Virus record (IMG/VR): IMGVR_UViG_3300002144_000453
Span: 1 to 46,910 of that record
Reading direction: 5' to 3' (one strand)
Length of the DNA stretch: 46,910 bases
Origin: a virus
Position numbers and translations under genes: made by a program. The notes beneath the pieces were generated by a model. The model had not been told where the DNA came from and did no database searches. It saw only the letters and a program-made list of their open reading frames with translations. Of the stretch, positions 33,155 through 36,866 are shown in pieces (position 1 is the stretch's first letter; every line of letters begins with the position of its first letter).

Positions 33155-33535
33155 TTGGCATACTCAGACAAGGTAGTTGAGCACTACGAAAATCCACGCA
33201 ATGTGGGAAAGTTCGAAATAGACGATACAATCGGAACAGGTATGGTTGGTGCTCCTGCTTGTGGCGATGTAATGAAACTTCAAATTAAAGTAGAAGATGG
33301 AATTATTACTGATGCTAAATTTAAAACATACGGTTGCGGAAGTGCTATTGCAAGCAGTTCATTAGTCACTGAGTGGGTTAAGGGCAAAACACTTGACCAA
33401 GCGGCAGAGATTAAGAATAGTGAGATTGCAGAAGAGCTTGCACTCCCTCCGGTTAAAATACATTGCTCTATCCTAGCAGAAGATGCTATTAAGGCAGCAG
33501 TAGAAGATTACAAGAAGAAACACGAAAACAGATAG
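33155..33535 (+). CDS. iscU: IscU-like iron-sulfur cluster scaffold
   Basis: A 126-residue protein of the IscU family, the platform on which [2Fe-2S] clusters are built from IscS sulfur. All ligand positions are present: Cys36 and Asp38 (GAPACGD), Cys61 (YGCGSA), His103 and Cys104 (KIHCSILAED). The LPPVK chaperone-recognition motif for HscA is intact at 97-101. The start is TTG 33155, eight bases after AAGGA. No phage IscS is seen, so it would depend on host IscS/HscAB. Could support RNR-linked or respiratory iron proteins. Confidence 0.93.
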   Translation: MAYSDKVVEHYENPRNVGKFEIDDTIGTGMVGAPACGDVMKLQIKVEDGIITDAKFKTYGCGSAIASSSLVTEWVKGKTLDQAAEIKNSEIAEELALPPVKIHCSILAEDAIKAAVEDYKKKHENR

Positions 33536-33578
33536 ACAACGACATTGTTGTTAAACTTATAAACTAAAGGAAAATTAA

Positions 33579-34256
33579 ATGTACGCAACCGCAAGTTATA
33601 GAGACGCTTCCTCAATTAATGAAGCAATGGGCAGGGTCTATTCCCATATGGGCATTGCTGTGTTCATCAGCATGATCGTCAGTTACTTTGTAGGAACTAG
33701 CCCAGAGCTACTGCAATTCTTTTTTACCGGCATGCTAAAATGGGTAGTTATCTTTGCGCCATTGGCCGCAATCCTTGTGATGACTTTTGCCAGCGCTAAT
33801 TTCAGCAAGAGTGGACTACAACTATTCTTGTACGGCTTTTCAGCACTTATGGGCCTGAGCCTTGCTACAATCTTCGCAGTCTACACAATGGGCAGTATCT
33901 TCACAGCCTTTATGGGCGCAGGGGTGTTGTTTAGCACTATGAGCATTTACGGATACTTTACTAAAAAGGATCTAAGCTCAATGGGACAGATGATGTTTGT
34001 GGGATTGATTGCAATTGTTATCGCTAGCATTATTAATATCTTCATCGGCAGTACAGTGATGCAGATGGTTATTTCAGCCATTGCTATTATTGTGTTCCTA
34101 GGGTTAACTGCTTATGACACACAGCGTATCCGTGAAGCAGTAAGTGTTGGTGGAGACACAGGAAGAGAAGAAGTGATGGGCGCACTAACATTGTATTTGG
34201 ACTTTATCAACTTGTTTATTCACTTGTTACAACTGTTTGGTAATAGGAAAGACTAA
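33579..34256 (+). CDS. Bax-inhibitor-1 (BI-1/YccA-like) membrane protein
   Basis: A 225-residue protein with about seven membrane segments. Family marks include a cytosolic N-terminus before the first span, SALMGLSLATIF in the middle and GLTAYDTQRI near the end. In E. coli the relatives YccA and YbhL sit in the inner membrane, and YccA inhibits the FtsH protease. A phage copy could protect viral membrane proteins from FtsH; that is inference. AAAGG lies upstream; the aldolase starts one base after its stop. Confidence 0.88.
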   Translation: MYATASYRDASSINEAMGRVYSHMGIAVFISMIVSYFVGTSPELLQFFFTGMLKWVVIFAPLAAILVMTFASANFSKSGLQLFLYGFSALMGLSLATIFAVYTMGSIFTAFMGAGVLFSTMSIYGYFTKKDLSSMGQMMFVGLIAIVIASIINIFIGSTVMQMVISAIAIIVFLGLTAYDTQRIREAVSVGGDTGREEVMGALTLYLDFINLFIHLLQLFGNRKD

Positions 34257-34257
34257 A

Positions 34258-34878
34258 ATGCTAGAAACAATATGCGATGTGATGTTAGACGCTTATAAGC
34301 GCAACTGGATTACCAGTCGTGACGGCAATGTGAGTATTCGTCACCACGATAGGGATCACTTCTACATCACTCCATCTGGTGTACGTAAGCAAACGCTTCA
34401 ACCCGATCAGTTTAAGAAGATTGCAATCAAGCATTGGAGTTGGGCTGAAATGGAATATACTGATATCAGTGCCAAACTAAAACCTAGTGGTGAGATCCCG
34501 CTACACTTTGGTTTACAAAAAGCAATGGGACAGCATGCTGATGATGTAAGAGTAGTGGTCCATGTGCATCCCACATATTGTATCGCTGCCATGCATGCTG
34601 GAATTGATTTGGCAACAGTTAGTAATGCGTTTCCAGAATTAAATCGTTACACAAAGGTAGCGCACAATGTTGGTGATGTTGCTCCTATTAGCCAGGAACT
34701 TGCAGATAGGTGTCATGAAAACTTAAATCTTGATCACCACGGCAACATTGCTTATGATATCGTGGGCATTAAAGGTCATGGAGTTGTTGCTATTGACACA
34801 AGTCCATGGCGTGCTTATGAACACATCGAACGATTAGAGCATATTTGTAAGATTGTTTTGGCATCAGGAATTAAGTAA
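34258..34878 (+). CDS. Class II aldolase/adducin family protein
   Basis: A 206-residue enzyme-like protein of the fuculose-phosphate aldolase / ribulose-5-phosphate 4-epimerase family. DGNVSIR and TPSGVRK bind phosphate in relatives. A catalytic acid is expected in KPSGEIPLHF, and zinc ligands in VHVHPTY and IKGHGVVAI. I use ATG 34258, directly after the BI-1 stop; the longer frame would overlap it. Sugar-phosphate aldol chemistry is likely but the substrate is unknown. Confidence 0.8.
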   Translation: MLETICDVMLDAYKRNWITSRDGNVSIRHHDRDHFYITPSGVRKQTLQPDQFKKIAIKHWSWAEMEYTDISAKLKPSGEIPLHFGLQKAMGQHADDVRVVVHVHPTYCIAAMHAGIDLATVSNAFPELNRYTKVAHNVGDVAPISQELADRCHENLNLDHHGNIAYDIVGIKGHGVVAIDTSPWRAYEHIERLEHICKIVLASGIK

Positions 34879-34912
34879 TTGTAAAAATATCTAATACTAG
34901 GAAAATATTTAA

Positions 34913-35217
34913 CTCTCTAAGAGACAAATTAGAACCCCATTTGGTCGAGGCAGCTCGACTCGCTAAAATCCTGCCGAGGTAAAGCTCGTCGCCGGTGGAG
35001 TAGCGTGTTCACCCCTTTGCGTAAAGCAAACATCTCCTAAACACTATAACACCTAGGAACGAGGTTATAGATAGCAGTAGCTATGTCAGTGCAGGTAAGG
35101 AAAAGACTAGAGTCCTTGGAGATGCAACGAAATACCTGTTTCCAAAGTCTATGGCTGGATGCGACTCACATGAAGTTATCCAAAAGTTAGATGGAACCTG
35201 TGAAGGTTCCGTCTGAC
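34913..35217 (+). ncRNA. Large structured RNA candidate, class unidentified
   Basis: The 540-base gap 34879-35418 has no convincing ORF but contains dense, nested pairings. Hairpin 34944-34949/34954-34959, whose loop can pair with 34971-34974. Stem 35016-35020/35026-35030. A 7-bp helix CATCTCC 35031-35037/GGAGATG 35118-35124. Hairpin 35044-35049/35065-35070 with an inner 3-bp stem. Hairpin 35071-35075/35080-35084. Helix AGACT 35104-35108/AGTCT 35146-35150, which crosses the 7-bp helix as P3 and P7 do in group I introns. CAGGTA 35092-35097/TACCTG 35133-35138. Hairpin 35156-35160/35178-35182. A 14-bp stem 35186-35199/35204-35217 with a GTGA (GNRA) loop. AGACTAGA resembles the group I R element, but I see no exons and cannot confirm the class. 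Confidence 0.65.
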
Positions 35218-35264
35218 TGAAAAGATCTACATGAAATTACACTAAATTATTAAAGAAAATACGA

Positions 35265-35304
35265 TATGGCGATTAGCCATAGAGTTGTTTCGTGTAAACG
35301 AAAC
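35265..35304 (+). other. Two hairpins upstream of the cytochrome promoter
   Basis: TATGGC/GCCATA (35265-35281, loop GATTA) and GTTTCGT/ACGAAAC (35287-35304, loop GTAA, a GNRA tetraloop). The second ends eight bases before the -35 box, as in the other hairpin-promoter cassettes. They may end the RNA transcript or insulate the promoter. The remaining bases of the gap, 35218-35264 and 35342-35418, are AT-rich and show nothing else except the promoter and AAGGAAAG ribosome site. Confidence 0.7.
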
Positions 35305-35312
35305 GGTAATAG

Positions 35313-35341
35313 TTGACAATAATTCGATCTTACAGTATACT
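35313..35341 (+). promoter_or_regulatory. Sigma70-type promoter for cytochrome c-glyA-dadA
   Basis: TTGACA (35313-35318), 17 bases, TATACT (35336-35341). The next ATG is 35419, leaving a leader of about 70 bases. Confidence 0.85.
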
Positions 35342-35418
35342 AGTGGAATACTAATTTCTAGCTTAACAACAAGTTAGATACATACATTATAGCAACAATA
35401 AGGAAAGAATAAATTAAA

Positions 35419-35724
35419 ATGAAAAAACTATTAATCACCATGGCACTTACAGTAGCCGCAACTTCTGCAATGGCAGATGGTCTTGCACTAGCAAAAGCAA
35501 ACATCTGTTTAGCATGTCACGCCGTGGACAAGAAACTGGTTGGTCCAGCATTTAAAGATGTTGCTGCCAAATATGCAGATCGTAAAGATGCTGTTGAATA
35601 CTTGACTAAGAAAATTAAGTCAGGTGGCGCAGGTGTATGGGGTCCTATCCCAATGCCAGCACAGGCACAACTAAGTGATGCACAGGCTAAAGAATTGGCA
35701 CAGTGGGTGCTTACTGCAAAATGA
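35419..35724 (+). CDS. Class I c-type cytochrome (c8/c551-552-like)
   Basis: A 101-residue periplasmic electron carrier. Signal peptide about 1-19, haem site CLACH (Cys30, Cys33, His34), then KKLVGPAFKDVAAKY, and the axial methionine in WGPIPMPAQ (Met79): the small c8-type common in Gram-negative respiratory chains. Haem attachment would rely on host Ccm. It has its own strong promoter and leads an operon with glyA (ATGA overlap) and dadA. It may keep electrons flowing from a quinone pool to a host oxidase during infection. Confidence 0.95.
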   Translation: MKKLLITMALTVAATSAMADGLALAKANICLACHAVDKKLVGPAFKDVAAKYADRKDAVEYLTKKIKSGGAGVWGPIPMPAQAQLSDAQAKELAQWVLTAK

Positions 35725-36866
35725 TAGATACACGTATTCAACAAATTGTAAACTCTGAATCGATTCGCCAGGAGAATACAATCGAACTTATTGCTAGTGA
35801 AAACTTCACTAGTGATGCAGTAATGGAACTGTGTGGTAGTATCCTTACCAACAAGTACGCAGAAGGTCTTCCTGGCAAACGTTACTACAACGGATGTGAA
35901 GAAGTCGATAAAGTAGAGAATCTGGCAATCGAATATGCTACCAAGTTGTTTGGATGCAACTATGCAAACGTTCAACCTCACTCTGGCGCTAATGCTAACT
36001 TAGCAGTGTTCAAAGCATTCTTAAATCCAGGTGATGTTATCCTTGGTATGGACCTTGCCAGTGGTGGTCATTTGAGTCACGGTGCTGGTGTCAACGTCAG
36101 TGGTAAATGGTTCGAGTCACATTCGTATGGTGTTGATGCTGATGGTTATATTAACTACGAGAATGTTCAAGAGATTGCTTCAATGGTTAAACCAACAATG
36201 ATTATTGCTGGTGCTAGCGCATACAGTCAGGTAATTGATTGGGAACGTTTCCGTGAGATTGCTGACTCAGTTGGTGCTATCTTGTTAGCAGACATTAGTC
36301 ATTACTCTGGTCTTATTGCTGGTGGTGAATATCCAAGTCCATTCCCTTACGCTCATGTAGCAACTACTACAACACATAAGACTCTGCGTGGACCTCGTGG
36401 CGGTATGATTCTTTGGAATGAACAAGAGTTCAGTAAGAGGATTAATGGTGCTGTGTTTCCAGGAACTCAAGGTGGTCCACTGATGCACATCATTGCTGCC
36501 AAGGCACAGTGTTTCTATGAAGCACTACAACCCGAGTTTAAACTATACGCTAAACGTATTCGTATCAATGCACATGCAATGGCACAGACATTTATGGATG
36601 CTGGTGTTGATGTAGTATCAGGCGGAACACAATGTCACATGATGACCATCAACTTGAACAAAGAAAAATATAGTGGACGAGAGTTTGCTGACTTGCTGGA
36701 AGCGAATGGTATTACCGCAAATAAAAACGGTGTTCCAGGGGATACCCGTGGTTTTGTAGAAACATCAGGTGTACGTATTGGCGTTGCCGCAGAGACCACC
36801 CGTGGTCATGACGAAGCGTGGTTCAAACAACTCGCTGAACGAATGATTGCACTATTGAGAGCATAA
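35721..36866 (+). CDS. glyA: Serine hydroxymethyltransferase
   Basis: A 381-residue PLP enzyme that interconverts serine and glycine while charging tetrahydrofolate with a one-carbon unit needed for dTMP and purines. Start ATG 35721 (MIDTRIQQIV) overlaps the cytochrome stop as ATGA. Family motifs: NTIELIASENFTS, KYAEGLPGKRYYNGC, QPHSGANANLAV, the PLP lysine in TTTTHKTLRGPRGG, and HMMTINL. Somewhat shorter than E. coli GlyA (417), with no missing catalytic block that I can see. Overlaps dadA by one base (TAATG). Confidence 0.96.
   Translation: MIDTRIQQIVNSESIRQENTIELIASENFTSDAVMELCGSILTNKYAEGLPGKRYYNGCEEVDKVENLAIEYATKLFGCNYANVQPHSGANANLAVFKAFLNPGDVILGMDLASGGHLSHGAGVNVSGKWFESHSYGVDADGYINYENVQEIASMVKPTMIIAGASAYSQVIDWERFREIADSVGAILLADISHYSGLIAGGEYPSPFPYAHVATTTTHKTLRGPRGGMILWNEQEFSKRINGAVFPGTQGGPLMHIIAAKAQCFYEALQPEFKLYAKRIRINAHAMAQTFMDAGVDVVSGGTQCHMMTINLNKEKYSGREFADLLEANGITANKNGVPGDTRGFVETSGVRIGVAAETTRGHDEAWFKQLAERMIALLRA

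Follow-up and report, generated by a model that had tools for sequence, protein, structure and literature searches.

Large structured RNAs are rare in phages, and for most of the known ones a function is missing. The 46.9-kb virus record analysed here over its whole length (from here: the window) holds 540 non-coding bases between a class II aldolase gene (34258-34878, a match to Pfam Aldolase_II) and a cytochrome c gene (35419-35724). A structured RNA with features reminiscent of group I introns had been predicted for this gap from the bare sequence. Does the locus encode such an RNA, does it belong to the group I introns, and which task might it fulfil?

The RNA in the window

For positions 34879-35330 the minimum free energy was -120.2 kcal/mol, compared with a mean of -98.1 kcal/mol for shuffled sequences (z = -3.67; 0 of 100 shuffles as good). 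Together with homologues and covariation, this bears out the claim that a structured RNA lies between the aldolase and cytochrome genes. It occupies positions 34930-35305 on the plus strand, about 375 bases; the previously given extent of 34879-35312 contains the RNA, but the core begins near 34930 and not at 34879. All elements listed in the original prediction were found where it had placed them. The helix P3 indeed crosses P7, and the segment likened to the R element of group I introns, AGACTAGA, is located at 35104-35111. The stem capped by a GNRA loop is likewise present, but comprises 15 base pairs including G-U pairs, and not 14. The elements are listed below; the core of the window is of the kind called type B, as opposed to the type A core of other family members.

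34930-35012, plus strand: 5′ domain, common to the whole family, matched by covariance model R1
34932-34935/35007-35010, plus strand: closing helix Pa of the 5′ domain, GAAC/GTTC
34943-34949/34954-34960, plus strand: hairpin H1 of the 5′ domain, loop GCAG
34961-34964/35002-35005, plus strand: helix Pb of the 5′ domain, CGCT/AGCG
around 34975-34978/34985-34988, plus strand: variable hairpin H2 of the 5′ domain
35014-35029, plus strand: small hairpin CTTTGC-GTAA-AGCAAA, from sequence and alignments
35031-35037, plus strand: P3 5′ strand, CATCTCC, compensatory changes among 21 type B sequences
35044-35070, plus strand: hairpin X in the P4-P5 position, CTATAAC (35044-35050)/GTTATAG (35064-35070)
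35071-35084, plus strand: hairpin Y in the P6 position, ATAGC/GCTAT, from the alignment; length very variable among relatives
35092-35097, plus strand: helix a 5′ strand, CAGGTA, pairing with TACCTG at 35133-35138
35104-35108, plus strand: P7 5′ strand, AGACT, within AGACTAGA, pairing with 35146-35150
35118-35124, plus strand: P3 3′ strand, GGAGATG, from the type B comparison
35133-35138, plus strand: helix a 3′ strand, TACCTG, from the type B comparison
35146-35150, plus strand: P7 3′ strand, AGTCT, from the type B comparison
35165-35174, plus strand: direct repeat copy 1, CTC-ACATGAA (word from 35168), identical to the word of copy 2
35185-35218, plus strand: 15-bp hairpin with GUGA (GNRA) loop, 35185-35199/35204-35218, between the repeat copies
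35226-35235, plus strand: direct repeat copy 2, TCT-ACATGAA (word from 35229), coupled to copy 1 by identity
35265-35281, plus strand: 3′ hairpin 1, TATGGC-GATTA-GCCATA; compensatory in contig L109 (TAAGAC-GATTA-GTCTTA)
35287-35304, plus strand: 3′ hairpin 2, GTTTCG-...-CGAAAC, probable 3′ end of the RNA; the equivalent type A columns 441-459 covary
35313-35341, plus strand: sigma-70-like promoter TTGACA-17-TATACT, conserved in L046, L107, L109 and L111; probably the predicted promoter of the next gene and outside the RNA

A 22-base core pattern matched the contigs L107, L108, L109, L110, L111 and L112, the last being one contig with L046. Identity to the window RNA is 90-91% across 440-470 bases in L046/L112, L107, L110 and L111, and 81% in L109, a degree of conservation well above what chance would give. 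In L109 the first hairpin carries a compensatory change from GGTCGAG/CTCGACT in the window to GATCGAG/CTCGATT, and the 15-bp GNRA stem is retained by G-U changes. The loop of the small hairpin at 35014-35029 reads GTAA or GTCA in relatives or is shortened to GAAA. Hairpin X holds a conserved GGAACGA in its loop, and its stem is swapped in relatives for other complementary sequences, such as CCCTTTGC/GCAAGGG, CCTTGGA/TCCAAGG or CCCC/GGGG.

The flanking genes vary on both sides of the RNA among the contigs of this window group, which marks the RNA itself plus the promoter-like TTGACA-17-TATACT as the conserved unit. As the RNA accompanies only one of 80 aldolase relatives in IMG/VR (that of L046), it is not tied to the aldolase.

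Several further observations concern the surroundings. The genes behind the promoter-like element differ, with cytochrome c in the window and another small gene in L046. Around the window RNA runs a series of host-like genes (33155-36866) encoding a NifU-like protein (33155-33535), a Bax1-I membrane protein (33579-34256), the aldolase and cytochrome c, and including a gene at 35703-36866 that matches phrog_9968. Clusters of tRNA genes are found a few kb from the RNA in L109 (1-1174) and L111 (177-1997).

Family size, 5′ domain and two cores

The first-hairpin pattern also matched contigs of T4-like viruses, whose RNAs differ in the middle. A core pattern taken from these T4-like relatives matched at least 120 IMG/VR virus contigs and a looser first-hairpin pattern at least 119. 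From both viral scans, distant relatives of the window RNA were obtained on at least 190 IMG/VR virus contigs, a lower bound for the size of the family; 196 RNA sequences were extracted for later tests from among the matches listed. The match in L247 was discarded as a chance match inside a coding gene. Whole-record scans found one clear copy per genome, also in contigs of 180-357 kb.

The same core pattern gave eight matches in 257 Gb of prokaryote genomes, none of them with the remaining core motif. No match to the window RNA was obtained by blastn in 50,697 phage records, and blastn searches of cultured phages with the window RNA, two type A RNAs, one type B RNA and one intermediate returned no relative. 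Model R1 did not match in Melnitz, phiM12, Moby or S-SRM01. The comparison with Rfam called for by the original prediction yielded no known class: the window is without a match in Rfam 15 at curated thresholds, and at E-values up to 10 it gave nothing but an irrelevant microRNA (E = 6). A literature search found no description of the family, which catalogues of predicted viral RNAs may nevertheless list uninterpreted. These results support a virus-specific RNA family that lacks an Rfam entry, is single-copy in each genome scanned as a whole and is confined to virus contigs in these searches, with two core folds on one common 5′ domain.

The 5′ domain was captured by covariance model R1, for which 16 type A 5′ domains were used and the close relatives of the window left out. 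R1 finds the window at 34930-35012 (47.8 bits, E = 2.7e-12, covariance-model E-values being rough), and over the 206 kb searched it returned only other family members besides the window up to E = 10. In the alignment of the 16 sequences, both partners vary in 11 pairs, with 34 double-change cells versus 11.2 after shuffling and a covariation score of 0.334 versus 0.182 (sliding controls at most 0.079). Model R2, which describes the type A core, did not match the window core. Hence, the window has the 5′ domain and the paired words discussed below in common with type A, while its core differs.

In type A, the core alignment of 25 sequences contains 43 double-change cells versus 15.1 after shuffling. 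When 102 non-redundant type A members among the matches listed were aligned with MAFFT (effective number 89, APC-corrected covariation), strong covariation appeared for Pa, H1, H2, Pb, several central hairpins and the 3′ hairpins, among them the counterparts of 3′ hairpin 1, as well as for a helix at columns 254-257/300-303 and a P8-like hairpin at 260-265/277-282. A pseudoknot is also indicated by covariation, the loop of the hairpin at 205-226 pairing with 309-314. The type A core consists of the P8-like hairpin, GGGGG/CCUCC, with its loop paired to an upstream strand. This helix is almost invariant in the main group and is formed by other complementary pairs in relatives, namely GTTGA/TCAAC, GTAAC/GTTAC, GCGGA/TCTGC, GTGGA/TCTAC, GTTGT/ACAAC, GTCAT/ATGAC and, read by eye in L264, GCGTA/TACGC. 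An overall shuffle test of the loop/upstream pairing was not significant; as the automatic extraction mis-registers several sequences, these pairs serve as examples and not as a statistical test. Where type B has the crossing P7, type A has a nested helix, and it has no P3.

The type B core was compared in 21 distinct sequences, window group included, that were left after duplicate removal from the looser first-hairpin scan, in which at least 21 contigs had the window's kind of core. The strands follow in the order P3, a, P7, P3′, a′, P7′, so that the three helices mutually cross. Compensatory changes, which the original prediction had named as a check, are present in both P3 and P7. They affect three of the seven pairs of P3, for which the window has CATCTCC/GGAGATG and L257 TTGCTCC/GGAGCAA; ATGCTAC/GTAGCA. 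is the form in L266 and others. In P7 one of five pairs is compensatory: the first two (A-U, G-C) are invariant, the third is A-U or G-U with one C-U mismatch, the fourth C-G, U-G or U-A with one A-A mismatch, and the fifth is poor. Helix a (35092-35097/35133-35138), not listed in the original prediction, keeps its pairing through compensatory changes, with GCAGGT/ACCTGT in the window group and GTAGGT/ACCTAC in other type B RNAs; in type A, the strand at the corresponding position has several different complementary partners. Because few independent events underlie the type B covariation (the window clade versus the rest, plus one C/A change within the rest), we regard the predicted helices P3 and a as well supported and P7 as moderately supported. 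Two other candidate pairings, TTGGA/TCCAA (35115-35119/35141-35145) as a substitute for P3 and CACT just 5′ of hairpin X with AGTG at 35087-35091, are not kept by the type B relatives. Covariation thus supports the predicted 5′ domain, the crossing P3/a/P7 arrangement in the subtype of the window, and the 3′ hairpins.

Paired identical words and neighbouring genes

The word ACATGAA flanks the hairpin at 35185-35218 on both sides, as CUC-ACATGAA and UCU-ACATGAA. Among the matches listed, the stretches that follow CUC and UCU agree in six or more bases in 180 of 187 RNAs, and 18 different seven-letter words occur in these 187 RNAs. When copy 1 was compared with copy 2 of another RNA carrying a different word, seven or more identical bases were reached in 6 of 3000 trials. 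The type A word is RGAURAU, and its variable purines match between the copies: the first is A/A in 49 and G/G in 47 of 102 members, the second 48 and 48 (96/102 matched each). These comparisons show, by identity coupling, that the two copies of a 7-10-nt word must match each other within each RNA. Sequence comparison thus shows that the RNA is real, conserved and pseudoknotted, and that it carries two words locked to each other by identity.

There was no clear enrichment of the repeat word elsewhere in the loci. Within an RNA, complements of its own word were overall no more frequent than complements of foreign words, which points to a partner outside the RNA. Selection or exchange acting on the DNA could also produce the identity coupling. 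The coupled evolution of the words is a directly testable clue to the partner of the RNA.

The gene directly upstream of the RNA encodes a SegE-like GIY-YIG nuclease (PF19835) in 126 of the 186 loci with enough upstream sequence among the matches listed, including L118 and L257 (PF19835 at E 8e-36 in the latter). Between the end of the SegE gene and the RNA lie a few to about 100 bases. In 15 of these 186 loci a PD-(D/E)XK nuclease gene (PF24608) is located there instead, and in the window group neither nuclease gene was found upstream. The GIY-YIG nuclease family of SegE includes homing endonucleases. The nearest cultured SegE relatives, with 75% identity, belong to Methylophilales phages (Melnitz), in which about 150 bases follow the SegE gene, without the RNA according to model R1. 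As a side observation, the PHROGs family matched by the SegE-like proteins, phrog_447, is labelled 'NAD synthetase', a label that has spread to many phage records, whereas by Pfam its proteins are GIY-YIG nucleases.

Possible roles and relation to known RNAs

Since the words are coupled by identity and their complement is not enriched in the same RNA, a single outside partner reading both copies is the simplest reading. The family would consist of free-standing, structured RNAs, one copy per scanned genome, carried by large tailed phages, many with T4-like genes. Probably transcribed together with the preceding gene or after it, the RNA would fold around its pseudoknotted core, which may act as a scaffold that holds both word copies for the one partner, such as a dimeric protein, a protein bound in two copies, or a single nucleic acid pairing at both sites. 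In an infection, the RNA might then act in trans, either as a decoy or as a platform for assembly. That the RNA is a free-standing scaffold offering two identical sites to one partner in trans is the reading we tentatively favour and deem quite possible. A more guarded assent goes to the wider notion of a new phage RNA machine, in which a duplicated, freely evolving, identity-locked word would sit on a pseudoknotted scaffold with two cores, one of them with a group I-like crossing of P3 and P7; this may be so.

With a stop codon directly before it in most of the loci listed, the RNA could act in cis on the preceding mRNA only. It would then be a 3′-UTR element for terminating, protecting or processing the upstream mRNA, with an exonuclease-resistant or RNase-processed end and no role in trans. 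In most of the loci listed it begins within about 60 bases of the stop codon of a same-strand gene, and it closes with two tandem hairpins, often toward a convergent gene. Yet different genes precede the RNA (SegE, PD-(D/E)XK, aldolase or unrelated) at differing distances, no U-run terminator stands behind the last hairpin, and the size, the three mutually crossing helices and the paired repeats exceed what stability would need, which makes this explanation unlikely, if still worth considering. Distinctly less likely is a catalytic RNA related to or convergent with group I introns, whose P7 would bind guanosine and whose words would be substrate strands, e.g. in self-processing or circularisation. 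The order P3, X, Y, P7, P3′, P7′ is that of group I, P3 and P7 are supported by covariation, P7 of the window reads GACU/AGUC, and the SegE GIY-YIG gene lies directly upstream in 126/186 loci among the matches listed. Against catalysis speak the missing match to Rfam group I at E = 10, the lack of a clear canonical P8, of exons and of a recognisable P/Q, the nested type A core without P3, and the missing enrichment of an internal guide that could pair with the repeat word; moreover, the window group has the RNA without an upstream SegE gene, and the checked cultured phages have SegE without the RNA.

Direct copies that change together at a distance of 50-60 bases are typical of DNA sites that one enzyme reads twice. 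The words are two such copies and a nuclease gene adjoins in most loci among the matches listed, so they might be DNA sites for recombination, nicking or replication, with the RNA structure incidental to that role. This we hold to be very improbable, as the words keep to a constant RNA frame (CUC-word, hairpin, UCU-word) beside covarying helices, show no clear enrichment in the rest of the loci, and occur in the window group without such a nuclease upstream. Finally, the RNA might assemble with itself, its subunits joined by the repeat words or by kissing loops, as in GOLLD and ROOL, which form nanocages according to PMC12286853. The habitat is the same (phages, at times with tRNA clusters close by), as are the single copy, the many pseudoknots and the lack of a known protein partner. 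Such a homo-oligomer is nevertheless improbable: the RNA has no Rfam GOLLD/ROOL match and about half the size of GOLLD, and a symmetric kissing contact does not call for identical rather than complementary words.

The scaffold reading leaves the RNA beside several known systems. With the HEARO and omega RNAs of IscB and TnpB it shares a structured RNA of about 300 nt and an adjoining nuclease gene in many loci; it differs in having no Rfam match, in its neighbours, which are SegE GIY-YIG or PDDEXK_15 and not IscB/TnpB, and in that a variable guide end was not seen. Like tmRNA and tRNA-like RNAs it is rich in pseudoknots and of similar length, and ARAGORN, run on the window and nine relatives, detected no tmRNA, with its tRNA-like domain and tag-peptide frame, and no tRNA-like RNA, only ordinary tRNAs in L109. 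GOLLD and ROOL are likewise large, ornate, pseudoknotted phage RNAs without known function, sometimes in tRNA-rich phages. Unlike them, the RNA is smaller (about 375 nt), and their Rfam models had no match in the window or in 26 relative loci at the gathering threshold; the accessible part of PMC12286853 speaks of no identity-coupled direct repeat in either of them.

In architecture, the RNA resembles group I introns: P3 and P7 follow and cross each other as they do there, a pair of hairpins takes the P4-P5 and P6 places, an A-rich joining strand comes after P3, and P7 of the window reads GACU/AGUC. In contrast to group I introns, the RNA has no Rfam match (the group I model missed the window, L257 and L263 up to E = 10), shows no P1/P10 and has no clear P8: between P3′ and P7′ there are three to four possible P8 pairs, inconsistent among relatives, and the segment pairs with helix a instead. 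This extra helix crosses P3 and P7, and the type A subfamily, the commoner of the two, has another core, nested and without P3. As originally noted, there is nothing to splice, since exons are not evident and the RNA sits between complete ORFs; no tRNA halves were detected. For these reasons, membership in the group I introns is rejected on present evidence, the likeness being one of topology; the RNA may nonetheless work like group I, and the alternative already raised, a new phage RNA class, is supported. The family would thereby test whether group I-like P3/P7 folds serve outside splicing.
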